A stretch of DNA of 32,549 nt from a virus. Shown here piece after piece: positions 15,245-31,460 of this stretch; the first letter of the stretch is position 1; each line of letters starts with the position of its first letter. The translations under genes and the position numbers were made by a program. The notes under the pieces were generated by a model that worked only from the letters and a program-made list of their open reading frames with translations, made no database searches and was not told the DNA's origin. The stretch is taken from IMG/VR virus record IMGVR_UViG_3300028024_000173, positions 1-32,549 of that record; one strand, 5' to 3'.

Positions 15245-16285
15245 ATGACAAAAACCACCTCAATTCCCGGCTCCCTCGCGAAGCTTCCCTCGGTCGGTGC
15301 GTTTAGCCGGCCGGGGGATGCCCTCGATATCGGCCGTGCCCTTAATGAGCTTCCGGCGGGTGCTGTGCCGGACTGGATCGAACTGTTGCCGGCGGCTGAG
15401 ACTGTAGCTGGAGCCGATGGCCGCCAGTGGTTGAACGATCAGCCGCAATCCGTCGCCGCCGCCTTCGGCCGCCCATTGCCGGTCGATTGGGAACATGCCT
15501 CGGAACTCGCTGCACCGCTCGGCAAGGAAGCCCCCGCCGCAGGCTGGATTGAAGAATTGCAGGCGCGCGACGGCGGATCGATTTGGGGTCGCGTCGAATG
15601 GACCGAGCGCGCAAAGGCACAGATCCAGGCTCGCGAGTATCGCTTCATTTCCCCCGTCTTCGATTACGAGCGGGCGACCCTCCGCATCCGCCGCATCGTT
15701 TCGGCCGGGCTGACGAACAGCCCGAACCTTTCCCTTCGCGCGCTCAATCGGGCGCAACTTCTCGACCACGCAAACCAACCAGGAGAAACCGGTATGAGCA
15801 ACCGCGTGACCAAGTCCCTCGGCCTGATCGATGGGGCGAACGATGACCAAATCGTCGCAGCTATCGACAAGCTGAAGGGCGATTTTGAGACGGCAAAGAA
15901 CCGGGCGGAAACGCCCGACATCAACCATTTCATGCCGAAGGCCGACTATGACGCGGTCCTTGCTCGCGCGACCAACGCCGAAGCGAAGTTGAAGGAAACC
16001 GAGGACGGCGCTCTGAAGGCCGAAGCCGAGGCCGTAATCGATGCCGCGCTGAAAGACGGTAAAATCGTTCCGGCAAGCCTTGACTACTACCGCGCAACCT
16101 GCCGTGACCGCACTGGTCTGGATGCATTCAAGGCTTTCGCTGCCTCGGCACCGAAGGTCGTTGCCGATAGCGGCCTTGACGGCAAGACCCCATCGAACAG
16201 TGGCGGCACGCTCACGAATGAAGAGCGCGCGGTGTGCAGGCAGCTCGGCCTGACGGACGAGCAGTTCGCCAAGGCCCGCGCGTAA
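15245..16285 (+). CDS. I: Prohead protease with C-terminal scaffold (Mu gpI-like)
   Basis: The 346-residue protein matches Mu protease I. The N-terminal half (1-180) is the protease. H84 in PVDWEHASE and S136 in EYRFISPVF are likely catalytic residues, and SAGLTNSPNLSL (153-164) is the conserved closing segment. The C-terminal half (184-346) is a charged helical scaffold with a coiled coil (ATNAEAKLKETEDGALKAEA). The protease matures proheads and cuts the scaffold. ATG 15245 follows CGGGG after the structured gap. An internal in-frame start at 15794 is annotated separately. Confidence 0.92.
   Translation: MTKTTSIPGSLAKLPSVGAFSRPGDALDIGRALNELPAGAVPDWIELLPAAETVAGADGRQWLNDQPQSVAAAFGRPLPVDWEHASELAAPLGKEAPAAGWIEELQARDGGSIWGRVEWTERAKAQIQAREYRFISPVFDYERATLRIRRIVSAGLTNSPNLSLRALNRAQLLDHANQPGETGMSNRVTKSLGLIDGANDDQIVAAIDKLKGDFETAKNRAETPDINHFMPKADYDAVLARATNAEAKLKETEDGALKAEAEAVIDAALKDGKIVPASLDYYRATCRDRTGLDAFKAFAASAPKVVADSGLDGKTPSNSGGTLTNEERAVCRQLGLTDEQFAKARA
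15794..16285 (+). CDS. Z: Nested in-frame scaffold protein (Mu gpZ-like)
   Basis: AGGAGA at 15781-15786 stands eight bases before an ATG at 15794 that is in frame with the protease (Met184). Translation from here gives a 163-residue scaffold without the protease domain, starting MSNRVTKSLGLIDG. Mu is known to make its scaffold Z from an internal start in gene I, so the same arrangement is expected. The strong ribosome site inside a coding sequence is the direct evidence. The product should be made in excess over protease and removed during head maturation. Confidence 0.8.
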   Translation: MSNRVTKSLGLIDGANDDQIVAAIDKLKGDFETAKNRAETPDINHFMPKADYDAVLARATNAEAKLKETEDGALKAEAEAVIDAALKDGKIVPASLDYYRATCRDRTGLDAFKAFAASAPKVVADSGLDGKTPSNSGGTLTNEERAVCRQLGLTDEQFAKARA

Positions 16286-16319
16286 CCCCCGACCTCAATG
16301 CAAGCAAGAGGAACAATCG

Positions 16320-17210
16320 ATGATCGTTAATTCCGCTGCCCTTTCCAATCTGTTCGTTGGTTACAAGGCAGCCTTTCAACAGGGCTTCAACGAAGCCACA
16401 CCGGACTACACCAAGATCGCGACGGAGGTGCCCAGCGCCACGGCCGCCGAGGATTACGCCTGGCTCGGTGAATGGCCGCGTCTCCGCGAATGGATCGGCG
16501 ACCGCGTCGTGAAGGATATCACGGCGCACAAGTACACCGTGACCAACAAGTCGTATGAAGCGACAGTGGGCGTTCCCAAGCCCGCCATCGCCGATGACAC
16601 CTTCGGCGTTTACAAGCCGATGATGCAGGAGATGGGGCGGGCGGCACGTATGCATCCCGACGAAATGATTTTCTCCCTCTTGTCCGCGGGTTTCGGCACT
16701 CTCTGCTATGACGGCCAAAATTTCTTCGATACCGATCATCCGGTACTGACTGATGGCACCGCTGGTACAGTCTCGAATATGCAGGCCGGTACGGACCCGA
16801 TGTGGGCGTTGCTCGATACCAGCCGCGCACTACGTCCGCTGATCTATCAGAAGCGTCAAGAATACCAGTTCGTCTCGGTCGATAAGCCGAATGACGAGTC
16901 CGTCTTCAAGTCGAACCAGTTCCTCTACGGCGTCGATGGTCGCGGCAATTCGGGCTTTGGCTTCTGGCAGATGGCCTATGGCTCAAAAGCTCCCCTCACG
17001 CTGGAGAACTTCCGCGCCGCTTGCGAGGCGATGGGCGCTCTCAAGAGCGACGAGGGCCGGCCTCTCAACATCAAACCGACCATCTTGGTTCATGGTCCCA
17101 GCAACCGCAGCAAGGCGCGCGACTTGATCCTGGCTGCGAACCTCGCGAACGGCCAATCGAACACCGAGTATCAGGCGGTCGATCTGTTGCAAACCGGCTG
17201 GCTCGACTGA
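16320..17210 (+). CDS. T: Major head (capsid) protein, Mu gpT-like
   Basis: The 296-residue protein matches the Mu-like major head subunit. Family features include the N-terminal ALSNLFVGYKAAFQQGF, then IATEVPSATAAEDYAWLGEW and RLREWIGDRVVKDI. A central NFFDTDHP and a C-terminal VHGPSNRSKARDLILAANLA are also typical. It should adopt the HK97 fold and form the icosahedral shell. The size is close to that of Mu T (about 305). A good AGAGGAA ribosome site precedes the ATG, as expected for the most abundant virion protein. Confidence 0.96.
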   Translation: MIVNSAALSNLFVGYKAAFQQGFNEATPDYTKIATEVPSATAAEDYAWLGEWPRLREWIGDRVVKDITAHKYTVTNKSYEATVGVPKPAIADDTFGVYKPMMQEMGRAARMHPDEMIFSLLSAGFGTLCYDGQNFFDTDHPVLTDGTAGTVSNMQAGTDPMWALLDTSRALRPLIYQKRQEYQFVSVDKPNDESVFKSNQFLYGVDGRGNSGFGFWQMAYGSKAPLTLENFRAACEAMGALKSDEGRPLNIKPTILVHGPSNRSKARDLILAANLANGQSNTEYQAVDLLQTGWLD

Positions 17211-17218
17211 GGCAAGCG

Positions 17219-17482
17219 ATGAGGAAAGCACTCTCTATCATCGCGCCGGCTGGCCCGTTCTGGCGGGCCGGTCTGAAGTTCGACCGAGAAGCGCGTGTTA
17301 TCGCCCTGGACGAGCTGACGAAAGATCAGCTCGAAAAAATCAAGAGCGAGCCGCGCCTGTCGGTCGAGGCGGCCGAGTTGCCGGATGATGGCCGCAGCGG
17401 CGGCACGACTGGTGACGAAAGCGGCAAGGCACCCGCCAAGGAAGCGGGCGGCAAGGCCACATCCGGCAAGAACAGGAAATAG
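17219..17482 (+). CDS. Mu gp35-like small head protein (HI1506-related)
   Basis: ATG 17219 gives an 87-residue protein. The first 55 residues have the gp35/HI1506 pattern: an aromatic-Arg segment PFWRAGLKFDREARVIALDE, then QLEKIKSEPRLSVEAAE. The rest is a low-complexity Gly/Lys/Ala tail (GKAPAKEAGGKATSGKNRK). It lies just after the major head gene, as gp35 does in Mu. Its role, perhaps head stabilisation or decoration, is not proven. A longer reading of the frame from 17021 would overlap the capsid gene and is rejected. Confidence 0.75.
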   Translation: MRKALSIIAPAGPFWRAGLKFDREARVIALDELTKDQLEKIKSEPRLSVEAAELPDDGRSGGTTGDESGKAPAKEAGGKATSGKNRK

Positions 17483-18530: not shown

Positions 18531-19006
18531 TCTACGACTTGCTCTCCCTCCGCGATGCCGTCGCCACGAAACTGAAGGCTGAACTCCCACAGCTTAAAGA
18601 GTGCGTCCCGCATCCAGGCCGGTTCGATCTGGCCGAACTTGCCAATTACAGCATGCAGTCGCCGAGCCTCCGCATAGGCATGCTCGGCATGCAGCGGCCC
18701 GATGCCGTTCACACGTCGGAAACCGATTACCCCTTTCGTTTGGCGGCCTATGTCACCACCGCCGACCAGCCGAAGAAACCGCGCGATGTTACAGCCCTGG
18801 AAATCGTCAACTATCTTTTGGCGAAGCTGCCCGGCCGGCAATGGGGTGGTGAAAACGTGCTGCCGATCCAGGCGCTGACGGTGACGGCCGACAACCTCTA
18901 TTCCTCGAAAGTCGGCACCAAGGGTATTTCACTTTGGGCCGTGACCTGGTTGCAGCCGATCCGCCTCGGTGGCGACGACCTGGTGCTTGAGGTCGGCAAT
19001 GGCTGA
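18527..19006 (+). CDS. Mu gp37-like tail terminator-type protein (DUF1834)
   Basis: The 159-residue protein fits the DUF1834 / gp37 family. Family-like parts are YDLLSLRDAVATKLKAELPQ, a central FRLAAYVTTADQP and the C-terminal TVTADNLYSSKVGTKGISLW. Members are thought to cap or terminate the tail tube in Mu-like phages. ATGA overlap with the upstream gene and an 8-base overlap with the V-like gene place it in one translationally coupled unit. Confidence 0.85.
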   Translation: MIYDLLSLRDAVATKLKAELPQLKECVPHPGRFDLAELANYSMQSPSLRIGMLGMQRPDAVHTSETDYPFRLAAYVTTADQPKKPRDVTALEIVNYLLAKLPGRQWGGENVLPIQALTVTADNLYSSKVGTKGISLWAVTWLQPIRLGGDDLVLEVGNG

Positions 19007-19475
19007 TCTCGCTTTTCTGCTCGCCGAACTCGACCGCCGCCTAGCCAATATGCTCAAGGTCGGCACGGTCGTTAAGGTCGATCACGGCAAGGCGCTGGCG
19101 TCGGTCGAAATCCGGACGGCGAGTGGCACGATCACCACGCGGCTCGTGCCGATCCCGGCGGGGCGCGCGGGAGAGGTCAAGCGTTGGTCTCCTGTCTCCG
19201 TAGGCGAGCAAGTGATGGTTGCTAGCCTCGGCGGCGAGACTGGCGCGGCTTTCATCATTGGTCCCTATTATCAGGCGAGCATGCCGGCGCCGGGCAACAA
19301 CGGCACAACCGAAATTGTCACTTTCCCTGACGGAACCGTGATTGAGCACGATTGGGGCGCCGGTCAGATGAGCATCAAGACCCCCGCCGATCTAACCATC
19401 GAAGCGGCAAACGTCACCATGAAGACGGGCACAATTCGCTTTGTGTATTCCGCCTTTGAAATGGTGGAAAGCTGA
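18999..19475 (+). CDS. V: Baseplate spike / assembly protein V-like
   Basis: ATG 18999, with GAGG six bases upstream, gives a 158-residue baseplate spike of the P2 gpV / Mu gp45 group. An N-terminal OB-fold is expected (VGTVVKVDHGKALASVEIRT, then WSPVSVGEQVMVASLGGETG). A C-terminal beta-helix-like repeat follows (TVIEHDWGAGQMSIKTPADL, then TIEAANVTMKTGTIRF). The spike pierces the outer membrane at infection. It is shorter than P2 V (211 residues), and the PAAR gene next to it probably supplies the sharp tip. Confidence 0.88.
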   Translation: MADLAFLLAELDRRLANMLKVGTVVKVDHGKALASVEIRTASGTITTRLVPIPAGRAGEVKRWSPVSVGEQVMVASLGGETGAAFIIGPYYQASMPAPGNNGTTEIVTFPDGTVIEHDWGAGQMSIKTPADLTIEAANVTMKTGTIRFVYSAFEMVES

Positions 19476-19477
19476 TC

Positions 19478-19747
19478 ATGGCTCACGGTATCGCCGTCAA
19501 AGGCTTGGACGCTGCCGGCGGCACGCAGATTGCTGCCGGCCGTCGCACCACCTGGAATGGCCAACCGATCGTCTGCCTCGGCGATCCGGTGACCCCGCAT
19601 GGCAACGGCACGCATAGCAGTCCGGTGATGGCGGAAGGCCATCACGCGATCCGGTGGAACGGCATTCCTGTTTGCTTTGAAGGACACCACGCGAATTGCG
19701 GCCATGCCACCAGCGGCCGGCCGAAGACCACCAGCGACACACTTTGA
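19478..19747 (+). CDS. PAAR-domain spike tip protein
   Basis: The 89-residue protein has the PAAR pattern: IVCLGDPVTPHGNGTHSSP, then GHHAIRWNGIPVCFEGHHAN and a final CGHATSGRP. The many His and Cys residues are the expected metal ligands at the tip of the cone. PAAR proteins sharpen the spike of contractile tails. It follows the V-like gene by two bases. P2 itself carries no separate PAAR gene, but many P2-like tails have one here. Confidence 0.9.
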   Translation: MAHGIAVKGLDAAGGTQIAAGRRTTWNGQPIVCLGDPVTPHGNGTHSSPVMAEGHHAIRWNGIPVCFEGHHANCGHATSGRPKTTSDTL

Positions 19748-19761
19748 AAAGGAGCAGTGCA

Positions 19762-19980
19762 TTGGCGACGAAAACCTACACCGTTATTTCCGGTCTCAGT
19801 CACGCCGGGAAATTCTACAAGCCCGGCAAAACAATCGAACTGTCGGACCGACAGGCCCAATACCTAGTCCTGGGTGGCCAGATCACCGAGGGCAAGGCGA
19901 AGCCGGCGCCGGCCGCTAAGGTCGCAAGGACGGAACCGGATCACCCTGGGGCCGTGGCTCCGGCGAAGAAGACGAAGTAA
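19762..19980 (+). CDS. Small uncharacterised tail-region protein
   Basis: TTG 19762 follows AAAAGGAG with good spacing and gives a 72-residue protein. The first 45 residues look like a compact beta/alpha module (YTVISGLSHAGKFYKPGKTI, then ELSDRQAQYLVLGGQI), a pattern common in short phage proteins of unknown role. The rest is an Ala/Pro/Lys-rich tail ending APAKKTK. Earlier in-frame ATGs would overlap the PAAR gene. Its function is not recognised; it lies between PAAR and W. Confidence 0.65.
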   Translation: MATKTYTVISGLSHAGKFYKPGKTIELSDRQAQYLVLGGQITEGKAKPAPAAKVARTEPDHPGAVAPAKKTK

Positions 19981-19982
19981 TC

Positions 19983-20333
19983 ATGCGCGGCATGACGGCT
20001 GCCGGCGGCAAGGTCTTGAGCGATGAAGCTCATATCTCGCAGTCGGTCATGGACATTCTGATGACGCCGCTCAATTCCCGGGTCATGAGGCGTGACTATG
20101 GCAGCCGTTTGCCGTTGCTGATGGACCGGCCCATCACCCAGGAAAACGCGGTTGAGGTCTATGCAGCCGTCGCGGAAGCGCTGGGCAGATGGGAGCCGCG
20201 CATCCAGGTGCAGCGCATTCAGCTTGTTTCGGGCAATCAAGCCGGCGGTGCGGTGTTCGAAATCGCCGCAATCAATCTCGAAACCGGCAAGCCCTGGAAC
20301 TTGACCTTTAGCCAGGAGCAAATCGCCAGATGA
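19983..20333 (+). CDS. W: Baseplate wedge protein W (gpW/gp25 family)
   Basis: The 116-residue protein matches P2 gpW and T4 gp25. Key segments are HISQSVMDILMTPLNSRVMR, RRDYGSRLPLLMDRPI and a C-terminal INLETGKPWNLTF. These proteins form the core of the baseplate wedge and are related in fold to lysozyme without being enzymes. The gene overlaps J by four bases (ATGA), as is usual in P2-like tails. Confidence 0.93.
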   Translation: MRGMTAAGGKVLSDEAHISQSVMDILMTPLNSRVMRRDYGSRLPLLMDRPITQENAVEVYAAVAEALGRWEPRIQVQRIQLVSGNQAGGAVFEIAAINLETGKPWNLTFSQEQIAR

Positions 20334-21316
20334 GCGCCTTTACCGCCGTCGATCTCGCCAACCTGCCAGCACCGAACCTGATTGAGCCGTTGGATTTTGA
20401 GACGATCTTCGAGGATATGAAGGCCGATTTCATTGCTCGGAACCCGGCCGAGTATACGGCTTTGGTGGAGAGCGATCCTGGCATAAAGCTTATCGAGGCC
20501 GCCGCCTATCGCGAATTGCAGGTGCGGCAGAGCTTCAACGAGAGAGCAAAAGCTGTGTTGCTCGCTCAGTCGCGCGGCCCCGACCTCGATAACCTCGCAG
20601 CCTTTTATGAAGTGGAGCGGCGGCTTGTCGATCCCGGTGACCCGGCCGCATACCCGCCGATTGATCCCATCTGGGAGTTGGACGAAGATCTCCGGCGCCG
20701 CGCGCAGATGGCGCCGGAAGCGCTGACAGTTGCCGGGTCGGAAGGGGCTTATGTCTTTCATGCCCTATCGGCTGGCCAGCAACCCATCGACATGCAGGTT
20801 GACAGCCCGTCACCCAATGTCATCACCGTTACCTATCGATACGCCCCATCTCCGGTCGCCTCGCAGGTTCGCCATGCAAGCGTTGATTCGCCTGTACCCG
20901 GTCAAGTCGTGGTGGCCGTTCTATCGCGCGTTGGCGATGGGACGCCGTCGCCTGACCTCGTACAGCAGGTGCGCAACAGTCTCGGCGATGAGGACGTACG
21001 CCCGCTGACGGACGATGTCTATGTCAACCCTGCCGCAATTATCTCTTATCAAGTCGAAGCTGAAATCACCCTCTATAGCGGCATCGATAGCGAGTTGATC
21101 CGTCAGGCCGCGGTGGATGCGGTTCAGCAGCTTGCGACCGAGCGCCACCGCCTGGGTGATACAATTGCATTGTCGGCCGTTGACGGCGCGCTGTGTCGCC
21201 CTGGCGTCCAGAAGGCACGGATTGTCCAGCCGGCGGGCGACATCATTTGCACCAAGGCTCAGGCGGCCTTTTGTACCGGCATCACCGTGACCGTCGCCGG
21301 TGTCGCTAATGTCTGA
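20330..21316 (+). CDS. J: Baseplate assembly protein J
   Basis: The 328-residue protein fits P2 gpJ (302 residues) and the Baseplate_J family. The N-terminal half contains VESDPGIKLIEAAAYRELQV and RGPDLDNLAAFYEVERRLVD. The centre has the hallmark GSEGAYVFHALSAG, then a beta region VITVTYRYAPS. The C-terminal repeat VQQVRNSLGDEDVRPLTDDV is also typical. It joins W and I to make the wedge. The stop overlaps the I-like start by eight bases. Confidence 0.93.
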   Translation: MSAFTAVDLANLPAPNLIEPLDFETIFEDMKADFIARNPAEYTALVESDPGIKLIEAAAYRELQVRQSFNERAKAVLLAQSRGPDLDNLAAFYEVERRLVDPGDPAAYPPIDPIWELDEDLRRRAQMAPEALTVAGSEGAYVFHALSAGQQPIDMQVDSPSPNVITVTYRYAPSPVASQVRHASVDSPVPGQVVVAVLSRVGDGTPSPDLVQQVRNSLGDEDVRPLTDDVYVNPAAIISYQVEAEITLYSGIDSELIRQAAVDAVQQLATERHRLGDTIALSAVDGALCRPGVQKARIVQPAGDIICTKAQAAFCTGITVTVAGVANV

Positions 21317-21968
21317 TGTGGTCACGATCCTGCCGGCCAATGCGACGCAGCTTGAACGCGACGTTGAGGCAGCGGCGGCACGTATTGGCGATGTGCCGTA
21401 CCCGGTCGATACGCTCTGGAACCCGGATAAATGCCCGGTTGTCTTTCTTCCCTGGCTTGCCTGGGCGCTGTCCGTGGATCTCTGGAAATCGGATTGGCCC
21501 GAGGCCCGCAAGCGTGCGGCGATCAAACGCAGCATCGCTTGGCATCGTCGCAAAGGCACTGTGGGGGCAGTGCGCCGGGCAATTGCAATGCTCGATATGG
21601 AGATGATCGAGATCGTCGAATGGTTCCAAGTCGAGGCAAAACGCGACACTTACGCGGTGTTGCATGGCCGGCCTTATACCTTCGCCGTCAATGCCGGCCT
21701 GTCCTCACGCAGCGTCTCAATGCAGATGTGGGATGAGCTATTCGACGCAATCTGGGAAGCGAAGAATGTCCGCTCTCATCTCATGCAATTGCGGCTCTAC
21801 CTGACGCAGCATTGCATCGCGCCGCGCATCGGTGCCGCCGCGTATTTCGGCGAAGACACCACGATCTATCCGTATGAGCTTCAGCCCATAGAGCAATCGG
21901 AAGAGACCTATTATGGCCTTGCGCACTATGGCGCGGAAGTCGGCTACCTCTATCCAAGAGCGAGTTAA
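21309..21968 (+). CDS. I: Tail protein I (baseplate/fibre attachment)
   Basis: ATG 21309 gives a 219-residue protein of the P2 gpI family. Segments VVTILPANATQLERDVEAAA and CPVVFLPWLAWALSVDLW are characteristic, as is AIKRSIAWHRRKGTVGAVRR. P2 gpI links wedges to the tail fibres. The C-terminus, after residue about 170, is Tyr-rich and probably fibre-specific. The gene is next to the fibre gene H. The frame could begin three codons earlier, but 21309 is the better-placed ATG. It must not be confused with the Mu-type protease I gene in this window. Confidence 0.9.
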   Translation: MSDVVTILPANATQLERDVEAAAARIGDVPYPVDTLWNPDKCPVVFLPWLAWALSVDLWKSDWPEARKRAAIKRSIAWHRRKGTVGAVRRAIAMLDMEMIEIVEWFQVEAKRDTYAVLHGRPYTFAVNAGLSSRSVSMQMWDELFDAIWEAKNVRSHLMQLRLYLTQHCIAPRIGAAAYFGEDTTIYPYELQPIEQSEETYYGLAHYGAEVGYLYPRAS

Positions 21969-21973
21969 TTCAC

Positions 21974-23311
21974 ATGGCTGATGATTATTATACGCTGATC
22001 ACTTCGACGGGTAAGGCAAAGCTGGCGGCAGCGATAGCTGCGGGTGTCGCTGTCAACATCACTCAGATGGCGGTTGGTGATGGCATGGCGGCGCCGAGTG
22101 AAATCCAGACGACGCTTGTCGCCGAGAAGTATCGGCAGGCGATCAACGGCATTCGCGTTTTGCCGGATAATCCGGCCTGGGTCGAGATCGAGGGCGTCAT
22201 TCCGCAGACAGTTGGCGGCTGGTATGTGCGAGAAGTCGGCATCTTCGATGATGCAGGCGCGCTGATCGCCGTCGCCCGTTACCCGGAAAGCTTCAAACCG
22301 CAGCTCGATAGCGGCACCGGCAAGGACCTATATATCCGGTTGATCTTGGAGGTCGGAAATACGTCCTCGGTTAATTTGCTGATTGATCCGGCAATCGTTC
22401 TGGCCACGCGCAAGTATGTGGATGACACCATGGCCGACCACGAGAACAGCCATGACCACCCATATGCAACGACCGAGTTGCCGGGCTTCGTTGAACTGGC
22501 AACCCTTTCCGAGGCCAGAGAAGGCGCAGACGATCAGCGCGCAGTGACACCCAAGGGGTTATGGGGCGCGCTGAATTCCGTGGTACAGGCCGGGCAATGC
22601 TACTTGCAGCTCGTTGGTGACAATCTCGTCCTCATCCCCAAGAACGGGGATCTGATGTTCATCGGCGGCAAGCCCGTACACGTGCCCGGCACTGGTGTGC
22701 AACTCGGTTCTGCCGGTAACGCCGTTAACACGTCGTATTATATCTACGCGCAGGCCGATGATGCCTCGCTGCAACTGGAAAAGTCCGCGACTGCATATAC
22801 AACCGACCCCACCACGGGCATCACCGTTAAGATCGGGGCGCCGTCAAGAACGTTGGTTGGTTTCGCGCGTACCGATGCGAATGGCAAGTGGATCGACACG
22901 CAAGGAAACGTCGGTGTGCTTTCCTGGTATCAGCAGCGGCCCAAAAGCAGCGCTGCCGCACAGACCTCGTCCGGTACGACCCTCGCGTCAAACGGCCAAC
23001 ACCAATTAGCCGGGACGGCAAGCCGCAATTTCTTTCTATGCTGGGCTGGCGCTTCGGTGGACCTTCAGATTGCGTTGGACGCCAGCGTGAGCACCACAAA
23101 TGGTCTCATTACTTGGATGCACCTAGACGGCGTTGCCGGTAAGAACGCGATCATGACGAACCAGACACCGAACCGGTGGCAGCAGATCGTCAGCACAAAG
23201 GCAACCGGCCTATCAGAGACTCAGCATCTGCTTGAAGTCTATGTGGCGTGCCAAGCCGGGCCGGTCATAACCATTTACCACAGTTATTCAGAACTCACGG
23301 TTCAAGGCTGA
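21974..23311 (+). CDS. H: Tail fibre protein (P2 gpH-like)
   Basis: The 445-residue protein starts with the tail-fibre N-terminal domain (DUF3751-like): DDYYTLITSTGKAKLAAAIA, then ITQMAVGDG and GWYVREVGIFDDAGALIAVA. A fibre repeat of the type LPGFVELATLSEAREGADDQ with AVTPKGL follows near residues 170-195. The C-terminal 240 residues are Ser/Thr/Gly-rich beta sequence without clear similarity; this part should bind the host receptor. A phage-variable tip and conserved base is the usual design. Confidence 0.88.
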   Translation: MADDYYTLITSTGKAKLAAAIAAGVAVNITQMAVGDGMAAPSEIQTTLVAEKYRQAINGIRVLPDNPAWVEIEGVIPQTVGGWYVREVGIFDDAGALIAVARYPESFKPQLDSGTGKDLYIRLILEVGNTSSVNLLIDPAIVLATRKYVDDTMADHENSHDHPYATTELPGFVELATLSEAREGADDQRAVTPKGLWGALNSVVQAGQCYLQLVGDNLVLIPKNGDLMFIGGKPVHVPGTGVQLGSAGNAVNTSYYIYAQADDASLQLEKSATAYTTDPTTGITVKIGAPSRTLVGFARTDANGKWIDTQGNVGVLSWYQQRPKSSAAAQTSSGTTLASNGQHQLAGTASRNFFLCWAGASVDLQIALDASVSTTNGLITWMHLDGVAGKNAIMTNQTPNRWQQIVSTKATGLSETQHLLEVYVACQAGPVITIYHSYSELTVQG

Positions 23312-23321
23312 GAGGTTCGGC

Positions 23322-23975
23322 ATGTACTATCTCGACACGAAGGATGGTCCCAGCAATTCGCTATATCCAAAGCCCTTTCAGAACAGGAACGGGGTTGACG
23401 TCATCGACGAAGATTTCCTCCGGCCCGCCGACGAACGTATGGCTCTCGGCATCTGGCCGTTGGAGAACGATGAAAGGCCAGACGAAAACGACTTTGATGT
23501 CATCGGCGAAGAATACGAACACCGGGAAAGCGTCGTTGTTCGTCATTGGCTAAAGCAACCGAAGTCCGCCGCCGATCTCGCGGCAGCGCAGGCTGCGGCT
23601 TTGAAGGCAACGCGCACCAGTGCAGTGGCGGAGATCGACGCGCAAGCGGGTATCGAGCGGACACGTTACATCACCATCGCCCCCGGCCAGGAGTTGACCT
23701 ACGTCACCAAGCAACAGCAGGCGGCGGCGTTCCAGGTCGATCCCGAGCCGTCGCAGGAGAAATACCCGCTGATCTACGCCGAGATCGGCATTACGGGGGA
23801 CAATCCGCAGGCCGTCGCCGTTGCGGTGTTGGATGCGGCGCATGCCTGGGGTTTGATCGGCTCCGCCATTGAGGCGGTGCGATTGAGCGCTAAGCAGGCC
23901 GTGGCTGCGGCTGCCGACATCGCAGCCATCGACGTCATCATTCAAAACCTGACTTGGCCCGAGGAGGCAGACTAA
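23322..23975 (+). CDS. Fibre-associated protein, probable fibre assembly chaperone
   Basis: The 217-residue product follows the fibre gene with a GAGG ribosome site. Its N-terminal 80 residues are acidic with many Pro/Asp/Glu; residues 80-217 are helical with EIDAQAGIERTRYITIAPGQ and an Ala-rich C-terminus. The helical EIDAQ region resembles DUF4376-like and P2 G-type fibre-assembly proteins, which usually lie here. I cannot identify a firm family match, so the role is inferred mainly from position. Confidence 0.6.
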   Translation: MYYLDTKDGPSNSLYPKPFQNRNGVDVIDEDFLRPADERMALGIWPLENDERPDENDFDVIGEEYEHRESVVVRHWLKQPKSAADLAAAQAAALKATRTSAVAEIDAQAGIERTRYITIAPGQELTYVTKQQQAAAFQVDPEPSQEKYPLIYAEIGITGDNPQAVAVAVLDAAHAWGLIGSAIEAVRLSAKQAVAAAADIAAIDVIIQNLTWPEEAD

Positions 23976-24336: not shown

Positions 24337-25025
24337 ATGGCGACCGATTTCTTGCATGGTATTGAAACCATCGAGCTTAGCAACGGAGCGCGGCCGATCC
24401 AGGTCGCGAAATCATCCGTCATCGGCTATGTGGGCACCGCCAAGCGCTGCGCGTTGCGGGCATGCTCGCGCGTCGCGACAATGAGCAAGGTTTCTGGTGG
24501 TCGCCGTCCAATATGATCATCGAAGGCGCCATCGGTATGTCACGGCCGGTTGACTGGTACATCAATGACGTCAATTGCGCGGCCAACTACCTGAACAGCC
24601 AGCAGGTGACAACGATCATCCGCAATGACGGCTTCCGCCTGTGGGGCAACAGGTCGCCGGCACAAGACCCGCTGTGGGCTTTCCTGTCGGTTCGTCGAAC
24701 GGCCGATATGGTCTATGAAAGCTTGGAACAAGGGCTGCTCTGGATCATGGACAGGCCGATTATCCCGTCCACAATCGAGGATCTAGAAGAAACGGTGAAT
24801 GCCTTCCTTCGGAAGCTGAAGGCAATGGGCGCGCTGCTCGGCGGAGAGGCTTGGTTGCCCCGCGATTTGAACAGCGCCACCGAATTGCAGGCCGGCCATG
24901 TCTATCTGAAGCTGGACCTCGAACCGCCCGCACCGTTGGAGCGACTGACCATCTACGCTCAGCGCAACGGCGACTACTACATTGAGGCCCTGGATAACTG
25001 GTTGGTGGACAAACCGTCCAACTAG
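24337..25025 (+). pseudogene. FI: Tail sheath protein FI, internally deleted and frame-shifted
   Basis: ATG 24337 with a GGAG ribosome site begins a proper P2-FI-like sheath (ATDFLHGIETIELSNGARPI, then SVIGYVGTA at residues about 28-36). At about 24441 the frame loses similarity and stops at 24514-24516. The C-terminal sheath domain continues in the -1/+2 frame from about 24450 to 25025: RVAGMLARRDNEQGFWWSPS, then VTTIIRNDGFRLWGNRSPAQ and DPLWAFLSVRRTADMV. P2 FI is about 396 residues; here only about 35 N-terminal and 190 C-terminal residues remain, so roughly 170 residues (about 0.5 kb) are missing. The product cannot form a normal sheath. Confidence 0.88.
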
Positions 25026-25062: not shown

Positions 25063-25557
25063 ATGATCCCGCAGACCATTCGTCAGTTTAACGCGTTTAT
25101 CGATGGCGTTGGCTATGCCGGCCGCGTCACCGATAGCACTACGCCCAAGCTGACGCTGAAGACCGAGGATTACAACGCCGCCGGCATGGGTGGTACCGAT
25201 GTCATCCCGCTTGATCTCGACAAGATGGAAGTCGAACTGACCTTCCTGGAGCATACGCCCGCGCTTCTCGGCGTCATCGGCAGGGCCAATATTCCGATGA
25301 CCTTGCGTGCCGCTGCGAAGCGCGACGATGAAACGGCGGTGCCGCTGGTATGGACCATGCGCGGCATCTTCACCGAGCTTGATTCCGGACAGCTTAAGGC
25401 CGCCGCAAAGGTCGAACTGAAGCTGAAAGGCGTGTTGCGCTACAACAAGCTGACGCATAGCGGACAGTTGATCCATGAAATCGACATCGAAAACGGCGTG
25501 CGGAATATCGGCGGCACCGATCAGATGGCCGACATCCGCGCCGCTATTGGCATGTAA
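25063..25557 (+). CDS. FII: Tail tube protein FII
   Basis: The 164-residue protein matches P2 gpFII (172 residues). It starts IPQTIRQFNAFIDGVGYAGR, has KTEDYNAAGMGGTDVIPLDL and a centre with KMEVELTFLEHTPAL. The C-terminal YNKLTHSGQLIHEIDIENGV is diagnostic. It forms the rigid tube inside the sheath. The gene looks intact, unlike the sheath gene 37 bases upstream. A CAGGAGA ribosome site precedes the ATG. Confidence 0.95.
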   Translation: MIPQTIRQFNAFIDGVGYAGRVTDSTTPKLTLKTEDYNAAGMGGTDVIPLDLDKMEVELTFLEHTPALLGVIGRANIPMTLRAAAKRDDETAVPLVWTMRGIFTELDSGQLKAAAKVELKLKGVLRYNKLTHSGQLIHEIDIENGVRNIGGTDQMADIRAAIGM

Positions 25558-25569
25558 GGAACTACGGAT

Positions 25570-25878
25570 ATGACCAACAAGACCGTTTCACTGGAAACGC
25601 CGCTCGATCTAGGCGACCGCAAGCTTGAGGAACTTCTTCTCCGTAAGCCCACCGCTGGCGACCTGCGGGGCGTCTCGATGCTTCAACTCCAGCGTTGGGA
25701 CACGGATGAATGCCTCAAGGTTGTGGGGCGCATCAACCTCAACCAGGTCACGGTGGGGGACCTGGAAAAGCTGGAACCCTACGATCTGGCAGCCTTGATT
25801 TCGCAGGTAGCCACTTTTTTTATTTCGCCCAAGGCCATTCTGGCGGCGACGTTGGAGGCGACGTCGAAAGCGTCATAG
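25570..25878 (+). CDS. E: Tail assembly chaperone E (zero-frame product)
   Basis: The 102-residue zero-frame product matches P2 gpE. It contains VSLETPLDLGDRKLEELLLR, then KPTAGDLRGVSMLQLQRW and VTVGDLEKLEPYDLAALISQ. The family acts with the tape measure protein during tube assembly. Near its 3' end (codons 82-84) lies a run of seven T bases at 25815-25821, where a share of ribosomes should shift to the -1 frame and make the longer E+E' protein. Confidence 0.9.
   Translation: MTNKTVSLETPLDLGDRKLEELLLRKPTAGDLRGVSMLQLQRWDTDECLKVVGRINLNQVTVGDLEKLEPYDLAALISQVATFFISPKAILAATLEATSKAS
25815..25821 (+). promoter_or_regulatory. -1 ribosomal frameshift site T TTT TTT
   Basis: Zero-frame codons read ACT TTT TTT ATT, so the heptamer T TTT TTT (25815-25821) fits the X XXY YYZ slippery rule. 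After the slip, reading continues TAT TTC GCC into the E' frame. P2-like phages use a comparable site at the same place in gene E. Confidence 0.88.
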
Positions 25879-26024
25879 ACAACGCGTTGGACGATGTCGC
25901 CTTCGTCTACCATTGGTCGCTGACCGACCTCATGACCATGCCAATCGACCAACTGTTTGATTGGCAAACCCGCGCCCGCCGCCGGTTGCCACTGCCTGTT
26001 GTTCTTTGCGAGCCACTAAGATGA
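25821..26024 (+). CDS. E': E' extension of the tail assembly chaperone (reached by -1 frameshift)
   Basis: The -1 frame after the slippery run stays open for 67 codons to TGA 26022-26024. It carries the GpE family signature: ALDDVAFVYHWSLTDLMTMP, then IDQLFDWQTRARRRLPLP. There is no good independent start at its head, so it is expected only as a fusion to E, about 151 residues in total. The fused form is needed in small amounts for tape-measure chaperoning in P2 and lambda-type tails. Its stop overlaps the tape measure start (ATGA at 26021). Confidence 0.88.
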   Translation, partial: YFAQGHSGGDVGGDVESVIDNALDDVAFVYHWSLTDLMTMPIDQLFDWQTRARRRLPLPVVLCEPLR

Positions 26025-28498
26025 GCAACCTAAGCATCGCCCTAATCCTGAGTGCCGTGGACCGCATGAGCGGCCCCTCGAAAGCGGCGATGGCGGCGAC
26101 CCGGAGCGGCATCAATGACGTAACGCGGGCACAGGCCGAGGCTGACCGCGCATCTTCCGGCCAAGCCATGGTGTCGGCTTGGCGGGCGCGCAGGCAGGCC
26201 GTGGCCGATGCCGGCGCCGCTGCGGCGGCCACACAAGCGCAATTGACGCAGCTTGCCCGAGAGGGCGGCAAAGGTTCTGCCGAGTGGACCAAACTGGTGC
26301 GTGCCGCGCAAAATGCGAAGACGGCCGAACAGCAGCAAGCTGTTGCCCTGGCAAATCTCCGCAAGGAAATGCAGGCGGCCGGCATCGACACAACGCGGCT
26401 CGCCGAGGCGCAATTGTGGCTCGGCCGCGATGCCGAGCGGGCGCAGGCGCAATTGGCGGCTGCCAGTGCCAAGGCTCAAGTTACACAGGCCCGGCAGGCT
26501 GCGGCGCAATCCCGCCGCGCCGAAATGCAGGCGAATGGCGCCGAGCTTCAGGGGATGGTCGCGCAAGCGGCGGCCATGGCGGCGACGGGTGGACCGGTCG
26601 GATTGTCGGTTCGGTCCGCCATGGGATTTCAGGACTCGTTCGCCGATCTGAACAAGGTTGCCAATTTCGACCCGACACAGGCGCAAGCCATGTCGGCCGC
26701 GCTTCTGGAAATGCAAACCCGTATTCCCATGGCTGCGACTGGTCTTGCCGACATCATGACGGCGGCGAAGATGTCCAATGTCGCGAACCCGGACCTGATC
26801 CGCTTTACGGAGACGGCGGCGAAGATGGGCGTTGCCTTCGATCTCAGCGGCAAGGAAGCCGGCTCGATCATGGCGGCGTGGCAATCCGGCATGAAGCTGA
26901 CGACAGACCAGACCTTTGCGCTGGCTGATGCGGTCAATCATCTGTCCAACAATGGGATGAACGCGAGCGCCGCCGGCATCGCCGAGGTGATCCAGCGCCA
27001 AGGCGCCGTCGCACAGACCGCCGGTCTTGCGGCCCAAGAGACGGCTGCGCTTGCTGCGGCCTTTCTGTCGGCGGGTGCCGGCCCGGAGATCGCCGCCACC
27101 GGCCTGAAGAATTTCCTCGGTGCCCTGACGGATGGCACCAAAGCGACGACACAGCAGCGCGAAGCCTGGGATTTCCTCGGATTCGATCCGGAGCAACTGT
27201 CAGTCGATATGCAGCGAGATGCGCAGGGTACTATCACAAAGGTCATGGAGCGTCTGACCGCCGCCTATAATGACCCATCCGTCCGCGATAAGGTGCCGGC
27301 GCTCACCAGCGTGCTTTTCGGCGAAGAGAGCAAGGGCGCAATCATGCCATTGCTGACGAACCTGGATATGGTGCGGCGGGGTTTCTCACTGGTTGGCGAT
27401 CAAAGCCAATATGCCGGCTCGATGCAGCAGGAATACGACCAGCGCTCCAAGACGGCATCCAACTCGCTCGCATTGATGCGCGGGGCGGCCAATAGTCTGG
27501 CCGTGGCAATGGGCACCCAATTGTTGCCGGCGGTTTCGGCGGTTTCAGGCGCTGTCACCTGGCTGTTGTCCAGCGCGGCCGACTTTGCGACGGCCTTTCC
27601 GGTTATGACCCAGGTGGTGATGTACGGCCTTACGGCCTTCACCGCTATCACTGCGGCGGTGATGGCGGCGCGTATCGCCAAGATCCTGTACAAGCAAACC
27701 GTTCTCAACGTGAAGATCGCGTGGGACATCCTGACTGGCGCCGGCACCAGAGCGGTAGCGGTCTTCAATTTTGTGCGGACTGCCGTCATGCTGACTGCGG
27801 GTGCCATGCGCGCCATGGCAATCGCTGCCATGGCAACCCCGATCATTTTGGTTATTGCCGGCATAGCCGCCGCTGCCACGCTGATCTATCTATATTGGGG
27901 GCCGATCAGCGGGTTTTTCGCGGGCGTGTGGGACGCCATAAAGGGACCGGCTCTGGTCGCGTGGAGCTATCTCAAAGAGCTTCTGGCTTGGACGCCGCTC
28001 GGTGTCATTGTCGAAAATTGGGGACCGATCTCCAATTTCTTCAGCGGCCTGTGGGATGGCATTACAGCCAAGGCCGCGGCTGCCTGGAACTGGATCAAGG
28101 ACACCGTTCTAGGTCCGCTGATCGCTCTTAAGAATACGCTCGGCGGTGCCTGGAATGCGGTCTTTGGCGGCGGCACTGATGCGGCTGCGAACAGCGCCAG
28201 CGCTCAGGCGGCGGTCCAAGCCCAGGCGGCCCAGAATGCGACGATCCCCATGCCGCCTCGTTTGGTTGCCAACGATAATCCGGCTGGCTCTGCCAATGAC
28301 AACTCCGTGAGCGTCCGGCCAGTTGCTGCGGCCGTCGGTGGCACGACCTACAGCTTTCAAGTCTCGGTCACGCTTCAAGGCGTCGGGATGAATGAGGTTG
28401 AAGGGATGGTTCGTAAGAGCGTCGAGAGCGGCATCCGGCAGTCGATGGCCAACGCGCGGGCCGATAGTCGCGCTGTCAATTACGATCAACCGGAGTGA
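26021..28498 (+). CDS. T: Tail tape measure protein
   Basis: ATG 26021 gives an 825-residue protein. Residues about 60-190 are Ala/Gln/Arg-rich helices likely to be coiled coil. A TP901-type core follows (AMGFQDSFADLNKVANFDPT, then LAAAFLSAGAGPEIAATGLK). Hydrophobic segments lie near residues 530-550 and 595-625 (TPIILVIAGIAAAATLIYLY), with two copies of a W-GPIS-FF motif after them. Tape measures set tail length and may pass into the host membrane. The size is close to P2 gpT (815). Confidence 0.93.
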   Translation: MSNLSIALILSAVDRMSGPSKAAMAATRSGINDVTRAQAEADRASSGQAMVSAWRARRQAVADAGAAAAATQAQLTQLAREGGKGSAEWTKLVRAAQNAKTAEQQQAVALANLRKEMQAAGIDTTRLAEAQLWLGRDAERAQAQLAAASAKAQVTQARQAAAQSRRAEMQANGAELQGMVAQAAAMAATGGPVGLSVRSAMGFQDSFADLNKVANFDPTQAQAMSAALLEMQTRIPMAATGLADIMTAAKMSNVANPDLIRFTETAAKMGVAFDLSGKEAGSIMAAWQSGMKLTTDQTFALADAVNHLSNNGMNASAAGIAEVIQRQGAVAQTAGLAAQETAALAAAFLSAGAGPEIAATGLKNFLGALTDGTKATTQQREAWDFLGFDPEQLSVDMQRDAQGTITKVMERLTAAYNDPSVRDKVPALTSVLFGEESKGAIMPLLTNLDMVRRGFSLVGDQSQYAGSMQQEYDQRSKTASNSLALMRGAANSLAVAMGTQLLPAVSAVSGAVTWLLSSAADFATAFPVMTQVVMYGLTAFTAITAAVMAARIAKILYKQTVLNVKIAWDILTGAGTRAVAVFNFVRTAVMLTAGAMRAMAIAAMATPIILVIAGIAAAATLIYLYWGPISGFFAGVWDAIKGPALVAWSYLKELLAWTPLGVIVENWGPISNFFSGLWDGITAKAAAAWNWIKDTVLGPLIALKNTLGGAWNAVFGGGTDAAANSASAQAAVQAQAAQNATIPMPPRLVANDNPAGSANDNSVSVRPVAAAVGGTTYSFQVSVTLQGVGMNEVEGMVRKSVESGIRQSMANARADSRAVNYDQPE

Positions 28499-28501
28499 TG
28501 C

Positions 28502-28912
28502 ATGGCCCTTCCGGTCCAAATGGCAATCGGTGCTTATCGCTTTCAGGTATCGACCGCCGCGTATCAGCAGCTACAGCGTAAATATGGGTGGCGCTGGACG
28601 AAGGTTGACCGGGCCGCCCGCGCGCCGGCAATGCAATATGTCGGCCCGGCTTTGCAGGAGATGACCTTTGACGGAACGATCTATCCGCATGAGCGCGGCG
28701 GTTGGCAACAAATCGAGGCCATGCGCAAAGAGGCGGATAAGCACCAGCCCTTGCCGCTGGTATCCGGCTTTGGCGAGGTCTTCGGGGATTTCGTCATCTT
28801 GACGATCCAGGAGACACTATCGCGGTTCCTGATCGGCAACGCGGCCGGGCGGATCGATTTCACCATGAGCATTCAGGAATACGTGCGTGATCCCAGCGAG
28901 GGCGGGCGGTAA
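28502..28912 (+). CDS. U: Tail protein U
   Basis: The 136-residue protein matches the P2 gpU family. Visible family segments are AYRFQVSTAAYQQLQRKYGW, ALQEMTFDGTIYPHERGG and SGFGEVFGDFVILTIQETLS. gpU acts at the tail assembly stage near the tape measure. It starts three bases after the tape measure stop, and its last base is the first base of the X start codon (TAATG). Confidence 0.95.
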   Translation: MALPVQMAIGAYRFQVSTAAYQQLQRKYGWRWTKVDRAARAPAMQYVGPALQEMTFDGTIYPHERGGWQQIEAMRKEADKHQPLPLVSGFGEVFGDFVILTIQETLSRFLIGNAAGRIDFTMSIQEYVRDPSEGGR

Positions 28913-29124
28913 TGGCGACGACGTATCGGACCATGCAAGGCGATATGGTTGATGAGATTTGCTTTCGCCACTATGGCCGTACCGCCGAGCTGGTGGAGAT
29001 GGTGTTAGAAGCCAATCCCGGTCTTGCTGCGAAGGGTCCGAAGCTATCGGCCGGCCTTGTCATCAACCTGCCGGACGCGCCGTCGCCGGCCCGCACCGCG
29101 CAAGTCATCAAGCTGTGGGATTGA
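28912..29124 (+). CDS. X: Tail protein X (LysM-like)
   Basis: This 70-residue protein matches the P2 gpX family, a short LysM-like fold: YRTMQGDMVDEICFRHYGRT, then VEMVLEANPGLAAKGPKLSA and GLVINLPD. Such domains are thought to hold the tape measure-hub contact or to bind peptidoglycan. It lies between U and D exactly as in P2. Confidence 0.95.
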   Translation: MATTYRTMQGDMVDEICFRHYGRTAELVEMVLEANPGLAAKGPKLSAGLVINLPDAPSPARTAQVIKLWD

Positions 29125-29128
29125 TGCG

Positions 29129-30178
29129 ATGACGCCGACATATCGCATCACTGCCGGTGGGAAAGATGTTACCTCGGTCCTTGCCAGCCGGCTTGTATCG
29201 ATCACCGTCACCGATGAAACCGGCGATAAGAGCGACCAGATCGACATCACGCTAGACGACAAGGTCGATATGAACGGCGGTTACATTCAATTGCCGACCA
29301 AGGGCCTTATTTTATCGGTCGCCCTCGGCTATGTCGAAACAGGACTTGTCGATCTCGGCCGCTATGTCATCGACGAGACCAAGCTATCCGGCCCCGATCC
29401 GCGCAAGATCACGATCAAGGCCAAGTCCGCCGATATGAATTCGGCGATTAAGTCGCAGAAGACCCGCACATGGAAGGGTCAAAAGCTTGGCGGCATCGTC
29501 ACCAAGATCGCGTCCGAGCATGGATTGACGGCGCGTGTCTCGCCCGATCTCGGGACCAAGGATATCGCGCAGATTGACCAGACGAATGAAAGCGATCTCC
29601 ATTTCTTGACGCGCATCGCGGGCGGCTATGGCGCCATGGTCAAGTCGGCCGATGGCAATCTGATTGTAGCGTTGCCCGGCGATGGAAAGACGACGAGCGG
29701 AAAATCCCTGCCGTCGCGGTCGATCCGGTTGGAGGATATCACCTCGTACGATTGCACATTGCCGGAACGCGGCTCTTATGGGTCGGTCAAGGCGCGGTGG
29801 CATGACACGGCCAACGGTCAGACGCGAACCGTTTCCTACGGCGATGAAAGCGACGGGCCGGAATATGTCTTGAACAAGGACTATGCAGACGAAGCTTCGG
29901 CCCTGGAGGCGGCAAAGTCCAAGAAAGGTGTGCAGGACCGTGGCACCGGGGAGTTGCGCCTTGATCTACCGGGCGATCCGACATTGGCGGCCGAGATGAT
30001 CGTCAACGTATCCGGCATCCGGCCGGGCATTGATGGCGCGTGGCGCGTCACGAAGGCCGAACACAAGTTGGAAGACGCTTTGCTGACGACCCTCACTTGC
30101 GAGTTGGGCAACGGCCAGAGCAAGGCCAATAAGAAAGGGGGAAACCGCTTCGGCAATTGGGAAGAACGCCCGCAATAG
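29129..30178 (+). CDS. D: Baseplate hub protein D
   Basis: ATG 29129 gives a 349-residue protein of the P2 gpD / T4 gp27 hub family. Segments TDETGDKSDQIDITLDDKVD and ALGYVETGLVDLGRYVIDET are typical. So are KTRTWKGQKLGGIVTKIASE and NESDLHFLTRIAGGYGAMVK. It closes the central hub that holds the spike. It is the last gene of the P2-type tail block; palindromic DNA and the com gene follow. Older annotations call it 'late control D', but it is structural. Confidence 0.95.
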   Translation: MTPTYRITAGGKDVTSVLASRLVSITVTDETGDKSDQIDITLDDKVDMNGGYIQLPTKGLILSVALGYVETGLVDLGRYVIDETKLSGPDPRKITIKAKSADMNSAIKSQKTRTWKGQKLGGIVTKIASEHGLTARVSPDLGTKDIAQIDQTNESDLHFLTRIAGGYGAMVKSADGNLIVALPGDGKTTSGKSLPSRSIRLEDITSYDCTLPERGSYGSVKARWHDTANGQTRTVSYGDESDGPEYVLNKDYADEASALEAAKSKKGVQDRGTGELRLDLPGDPTLAAEMIVNVSGIRPGIDGAWRVTKAEHKLEDALLTTLTCELGNGQSKANKKGGNRFGNWEERPQ

Positions 30179-30286: not shown

Positions 30287-30493
30287 ATGGAGTCAATCAG
30301 GTGCGGCCAATGCCGCAAGTTGCTAGGCCGGGCAGCCATCCAAGCCGGCCGAGTCGAGATCAAATGTCCCCGATGTGGGACGATCAATCATTTGAAGGCC
30401 GGGAGCCTCGAAACCAGTGCGGCCAGACCGCCGGAAACAGAGGCCCGATATGGCACAGAAGCCAATCCGCCAAACCGGCACAATCGCCGATAA
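30287..30493 (+). CDS. com: Com-like zinc-finger translational regulator
   Basis: The 68-residue protein closely follows Mu Com: MESIRCGQCRKLLGRAAIQA, then EIKCPRCGTINHLKA. Four cysteines (C6, C9, C27, C30) form the zinc site. Mu Com binds the com-mom mRNA and opens a stem-loop that hides the mom start, so it activates translation of the overlapping gene. Here the overlapping gene codes a DNA methyltransferase, with a 44-base overlap. The ribosome site is weak (AGGA only two bases from ATG), but the N-terminal match to Com fixes the start. Confidence 0.92.
   Translation: MESIRCGQCRKLLGRAAIQAGRVEIKCPRCGTINHLKAGSLETSAARPPETEARYGTEANPPNRHNRR
30419..30431 (+). promoter_or_regulatory. Candidate Com-responsive stem-loop before the methyltransferase start
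   Basis: GCGG (30419-30422) pairs with CCGC (30428-30431) over loop CCAGA. It is enclosed by a bulged outer stem between GGGAGCCTC (30401-30409) and GAGGCCC (30440-30446), which would cover the AGAGG ribosome site of the methyltransferase (ATG 30450). This is the arrangement expected if Com must open the RNA. The fold was drawn by eye, not calculated. Confidence 0.5.
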
Positions 30494-31460
30494 ATTCTTT
30501 GCTTCTCCTTTCACAGTTCTGAATGCCCGTGATGGCTGGTGGCAGGCCCGGAAAACGGCATGGCGCCGGCTCGGCCTGGATAGCGGCGCCGGCCGAGATG
30601 GGCTGTTGCTTTACAGCCCCGGCTCGTTGCCGCCGGCCGCTTATCAATTGCGCTCTGCCGCCGAGGCAAGACTAGGCCGAAAGGTGTCCTGGCCGGAATT
30701 GCAGAAGCTTCACCCCAGCGCCATCAACCTGACCGGCACAAGCCTGTTTGATCCGGTGCTATGCGAACTGATGTACCGCTGGTTCAGCCCGGCCGGCGGC
30801 ATGGTGCTTGATCCCTTTGCGGGCGGTGTCGTGCGCGGCGCCATCGCTGCGAAGCTGGGCCGGTCGTATTGGGGCCTCGATCTCAGCGCCCGCCAGATAG
30901 CAGCCAATAAGGCGCAATGGCGGCGGCTGGCCGTTCCCGGCGATGCGGTGCCGATCTGGAAACGTGGCGATGCAGGCAAGCTTGCGCGTCTCTGCCCAGC
31001 CGATCTGGCGGCCGACCTCATTCTGACCTGTCCGCCCTATGGCGATCTTGAGCGGTACAGCGACGATAGAGCCGACCTTTCCACCATGCGCTATCCGCAG
31101 TTCATGGCGGCCTTTGAGCAGATCCTCAAGGCGGCGGCCGACCGGCTGAAGCCTGGCCGTTTTGCGGTTGTCGTTGTGGGGGATTTCCGAGACGGCAAGG
31201 GCATCTTGCGGGGCTTTCCCAGCGATACCATTGCGGCGGCGGCGGCGGCCGGGTTGCAGCTATACAATGACGCAGTGCTTGTCACCCAGGCCGGCAGCCT
31301 GCCGATCCGCGTGGGGAAAATCTTCGGCCCGACCCGAAAGCTCGGCCGGTGCCATCAACATGTCCTGGTCTTTGTGAAAGGCGACCCGCGCCGAGCCATG
31401 GAAGCCTGCGGCCCGGTCGATGTCGGGGAGATCGCTGGCCTTACTGATAGCGCCGAGTAA
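30450..31460 (+). CDS. DNA methyltransferase (amino type, N4-cytosine or N6-adenine)
   Basis: The 336-residue protein shows an AdoMet-binding motif LDPFAGGVVRG (D121-G126 core) followed by WGLDLSARQIA. The catalytic motif is TCPPYGD (C194 P195 P196 Y197), a variant of (D/N/S)PPY. VVVVGDFRDGKG follows as a later strand. The order motif I before motif IV suggests an alpha/gamma-like arrangement. It should modify phage DNA against host restriction, filling the place of Mu mom. No restriction endonuclease partner is seen. It overlaps com by 44 bases and the reverse-strand gene at its 3' end by 20. Confidence 0.87.
   Translation: MAQKPIRQTGTIADKFFASPFTVLNARDGWWQARKTAWRRLGLDSGAGRDGLLLYSPGSLPPAAYQLRSAAEARLGRKVSWPELQKLHPSAINLTGTSLFDPVLCELMYRWFSPAGGMVLDPFAGGVVRGAIAAKLGRSYWGLDLSARQIAANKAQWRRLAVPGDAVPIWKRGDAGKLARLCPADLAADLILTCPPYGDLERYSDDRADLSTMRYPQFMAAFEQILKAAADRLKPGRFAVVVVGDFRDGKGILRGFPSDTIAAAAAAGLQLYNDAVLVTQAGSLPIRVGKIFGPTRKLGRCHQHVLVFVKGDPRRAMEACGPVDVGEIAGLTDSAE

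Follow-up and report, generated by a model that had tools for sequence, protein, structure and literature searches.

The window analysed here, a single contig of 32,549 bases that makes up the virus record, encodes a Mu-like transposable phage with a P2-type contractile-tail module. A gene for a phage-type HTH regulator opens the record, in which no host gene was noticed, and the word prophage in the first-pass annotation is not supported by what was seen. The Mu-like character is seen in transposase A (phrog_310, E = 2e-151), transposition protein B (phrog_296, E = 7e-90), the Mu-type head genes for the gpT capsid (PF10124, E = 1.6e-120) and gpF (PF04233, E = 2e-18), and Com (PF10122, E = 4e-15). 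Further genes encode a ParB-like protein, a terminase, a portal and a protease. The Com-like zinc-ribbon protein lies at the right side of the record, and its ORF (PF10122) is overlapped by a DNA-methylase-like ORF (PF01555; both within 30287-31460), an arrangement that recalls Mu com-mom with the methylase replacing Mom. Near the right end, a HEPN-domain ORF (PF05168; 31784-32305) may be a host-defence or toxin-type cargo gene. An Rfam search returned no match.

The tail genes follow the P2 order, V-PAAR-W/gp25-J-I-H and then FI-FII-E/E'-T-U-X-D, with the sheath gene FI itself broken. All of those described below lie on the plus strand. The baseplate and fibre genes V, PAAR, W (gp25), J, I and H (19005-23311) are whole and colinear with those of the nearest relative; the small PAAR-motif protein (19478-19747) is encoded right after the baseplate spike gene V and is likely the spike tip. 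Downstream of the sheath gene, the tail tube gene FII (25063-25557) is whole and matches positions 1-165 of 165 of PF04985 (E = 5e-42). It is followed by the tail assembly chaperone gene E with its -1 frame extension E' in an overlapping frame (25570-26024; PF10109, E = 3.2e-11), the tape measure gene T (26018-28498; PF10145, E = 3.4e-29) and the whole genes U, X and D (28502-30178; PF06995, E = 3.8e-34, PF05954 and PF05489). As in the P2-type arrangement for programmed frameshifting, gene E contains a slippery T7A run (25815-25822). Family matches are near full length for tube, chaperone, U and X and span the expected domain in T and D; together with those for V, W, J, I and H, they bear out the view of the first-pass annotation that the other structural genes it could judge are whole.

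The sheath gene lies in two pieces. The 5' part, of the P2 FI type (24337-24441, frame 1), begins with an ATG preceded by an AGGAG ribosome-binding site and encodes 35 conserved residues that include the N-terminal arm (tblastn; phrog_23, E = 1.6e-9); its frame runs on to a stop at 24514-24516. The 3' part (24453-25025, frame 3, stop at 25023-25025) encodes the end of the subtilisin-like domain and the complete C-terminal domain, and was recognized by PF17482 (E = 2.3e-13), the tail end of PF04984 and phrog_23 (E = 4.9e-61). At the junction, 24442-24452, lie bases without a clear match to either side of the relatives, and the frame switches here. When full-length relatives were compared with the window using tblastn, two matching pieces were found and nothing between them. 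Alignments of the N piece covered 31-44 residues at 52-66% identity (E about 1e-6 to 2e-9), and those of the C piece 175-184 residues at 47-57% identity (E down to 2e-66), all of the latter in frame 3. At this level of sequence similarity, the two-piece homology is far beyond chance. The N-side homology ended at 24441, and once at 24444; the C-side homology started at 24450, 24453 or 24456, with a single looser alignment from 24396, and ended at about 24986-25004. These alignments with intact FI relatives, which had been proposed as a check, place the breakpoint between 24441 and 24450-24456. Together with the phrog_23 match they agree with the first reading of the locus, which put the N part to about 24440 and the C part from about 24450 in different frames.

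Placed on the PHROG tail sheath profile (phrog_23, 496 positions), the N part corresponds to positions 19-71 and the C part to positions 295-471. The window keeps positions 100-167 of the 168 in Phage_sheath_1 (PF04984), and with them the final two fifths of the subtilisin-like domain, and an essentially complete Phage_sheath_1C (PF17482, positions 2-99 of 104). Of the elements of a functional sheath, the N-terminal arm is present and the C-terminal domain is complete; a complete N-terminal alpha-beta-alpha (subtilisin-like) domain, from which at least 172 residues are gone, and one continuous frame are missing. The C part also aligns to residues 209-379 of the R-pyocin sheath PA0622 (PDB 3j9q; E = 7e-39), a P2-type FI, with the C-terminal fold kept. 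Set against P2 FI and 3j9q, the window lacks about 170 residues, which begin after the N arm and reach into the N-terminal domain as far as its middle, and its two parts do not share a frame. What remains of the 3' side looks like a gene: it retains all invariant residues of the family alignment, its third-position GC is coding-like (0.75, versus 0.74 in the tube gene) and it is 59% identical to a copy in an alphaproteobacterial genome.

We measured the size of the loss from the spacing of motifs on either side of the junction, which is 531-534 bases in the short relatives L009, L019 and L137 and 23 in the window. Relative to these short genes (389-391 residues), the net loss is 508-511 bases or 172-174 residues, about 43% of a 391-residue gene. 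Against the long type of 570-572 residues (L004-L007), it is about 1,030 bases or about 347 residues. The long-type genes are the closest relatives from viral contigs in the C part (53-56% identity) and carry an extra insert. As judged from these alignments, 172-174 missing residues are a minimum, and the parent may have been of the short or the long type. The earlier estimate of about 170 residues, or 40%, is therefore right as a lower limit, and the fraction comes nearer to 60% against the genes of 571-572 residues. Versus every relative checked, the DNA differs in length by a net 1 mod 3, and the fusion of the N and C parts is thus out of frame. Related sheath genes (L004-L007 and L010-L039) form size classes of about 389-399, 475-483 and 570-572 residues, set apart by variable insert domains that precede the C part; sheath inserts like those in some of these relatives have been described for phage XM1 (PMC10457771).

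The missing middle was not found elsewhere in the window: middle segments of five relatives, searched in six frames, gave chance-level matches only (best E = 0.03). The record has a single sheath match and no second sheath gene. Among 48 related sheath loci that were not cut at the 5' side, none lacked the middle, and we rejected a split sheath as a trait of the family. The N part was in frame with the C part in 46 of the 48. The two frame-broken loci, L008 (3365-4531) and L148, come from public assemblies and either retain the middle or have no defect other than a broken frame. Intact sheaths (L004-L007, L009, L019/L044 and L137-L140; about 50-59% identity in the C part and 52-66% in the N part) are each encoded in one open frame, of 389-572 residues where measured, unlike that of the window.

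The nearest phage relative, IMGVR_UViG_3300028024_000087 (L046/L131), shares 84-87% DNA identity over most of positions 1194-23471 (77% and 71% in parts), with the same gene order through the tail fibre. The match stops at 23471, 866 bases before the sheath gene, and therefore cannot show whether the sheath of this relative is whole. To the left of the break, 28 genes could be compared (the comparison leaves out the small ORF at 17209-17482, which is uninformative there); each aligned in one piece and none looked broken. The base quality of the record therefore looks good, and the comparison argues for a break limited to the sheath gene. The protease and major capsid genes (15245-17210) are 75% and 60% identical to those of this relative, compared with at least 90% in flanking genes, which suggests a swapped capsid segment. 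Searches with the sheath C part, terminase, tube, gpD and tape measure for a near relative that crosses the junction returned only this same phage, which ends too early. The ten nearest terminase relatives yielded one distant sheath match, at 26% identity, and 385 sampled genomes from the class of a Niveispirillum relative contained no near relative (best sheath 59%, best terminase 54%).

We considered whether the loss occurred in the phage or in the assembly. We somewhat favour a real deletion that happened recently and affects at least the copy sequenced over a pure assembly collapse, in which the real sheath gene is whole and the assembler passed over its middle because of mixed strains, uneven coverage or a repeat within the gene. 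Assembly collapse is the less probable of the two, yet a serious contender, and everything else together receives a very small share; these weights are judgements and not computed values. Several observations fit a collapse. The window is a single virus record and not a curated genome, the exact junction sequence was found in no other viral contig, no near relative spans it, and the two other frame-broken sheath genes (L008 and L148) also stem from unverified assemblies. Furthermore, assembly could fail at the inserts of the long-type relatives (about 180 extra residues), which are probably variable, and the remainder of the late operon is whole, as would be expected from an assembly error too. 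Against a collapse stand the 28 unbroken genes in the comparison with the nearest relative, and the fact that assembly failure more usually breaks a contig than removes a stretch from within it where no repeat is visible at the junction. In the favoured reading of a real deletion, the sheath gene of this Mu-like phage would carry one internal, out-of-frame deletion of about 0.5-1.0 kb. If real, the deletion would be recent rather than long-decayed, because the C part keeps its coding-like third-position GC and all invariant residues.

As written, the gene would give no working sheath, because most of the N-terminal domain is gone, the frame is shifted and the record has no second sheath gene. 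Its product would be a 59-residue peptide made of 35 sheath residues followed by frame-shifted ones. The first ATG of the C part is not preceded by a ribosome-binding site, and this part would be made little or not at all. Solved sheath structures have an inter-subunit handshake formed by both termini together with the C-terminal domain, while the N-terminal domain stands apart as an alpha-beta-alpha sandwich of its own (PMC10457771). For the intact relative L019 (391 residues), a good fold was predicted (mean pLDDT 83.5); its residues 34-205, the stretch absent here, hold 13 of 25 predicted secondary-structure elements and the bulk of the N-terminal domain. For the C part of the window alone, the first 79 residues, an orphaned half-domain, mostly had pLDDT below 50, and only the C-terminal domain, which resembles that of solved sheaths such as 3j9q, was predicted well. 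These structure predictions are consistent with a loss of sheath function.

It could be argued that the gene is not broken, and that ribosomal frameshifting fuses the N and C parts or that the two, made as separate proteins, act together as a reduced sheath. The retained N arm and C-terminal domain are the handshake elements of solved sheaths (PMC10457771), and the C-terminal domain is predicted to fold on its own. However, gene E has its clear T-run whereas no slippery heptamer was found in 24337-24516, and programmed frameshifting was rejected as a means of joining the parts; the C part lacks a ribosome-binding site, this form is absent from all relatives, and about 80 residues of the orphaned half-domain are predicted to be unstructured. 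We consider this reading very improbable. The same low weight goes to a helper prophage, or another sheath gene carried by the host, that provides the sheath in trans: co-residence is conceivable, as sheath-family genes occurred in 32 of the 385 sampled genomes of one bacterial class, whereas the record itself holds no second sheath. Least probable of all is a lineage that is stably sheath-less, with tube, spike and fibres that do not contract, or that stably uses a reduced sheath of N arm and C-terminal domain.

With the sheath gene broken as written, heads, tubes and baseplates would still be possible; sheath would not polymerize and the tail of a phage with exactly this sequence could not contract. 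The claim in the first-pass annotation that the phage looks unable to make a contractile tail stands as a consequence of the written sequence; as a fact about the phage, it is conditional on that sequence being right. Relict status or the production of defective particles, which was also raised, is speculation. Incomplete structural gene sets are also common in defective prophages and tailocins such as BceTMilo (PMC5411513); tailocins, however, keep the sheath and have lost the head, whereas the phage in the window keeps head and tube and has a broken sheath. No new architecture is suggested, because no relative shares the form and no expression route was found for the C part; what the locus shows is a commonplace gene break or a gap in the assembly rather than a novel type of system. 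A lone defective gene in one record supports no more than that. Annotators should check the reads at 24441-24453 before they list this record as an intact contractile-tail phage. A deletion that is real and has become fixed in a population would make the phage a natural sheath-minus variant for studying how tube and baseplate assemble without a sheath; no natural phage with such a sheath deletion was described in the open literature that we searched, a weak negative with subscription papers outside its scope.
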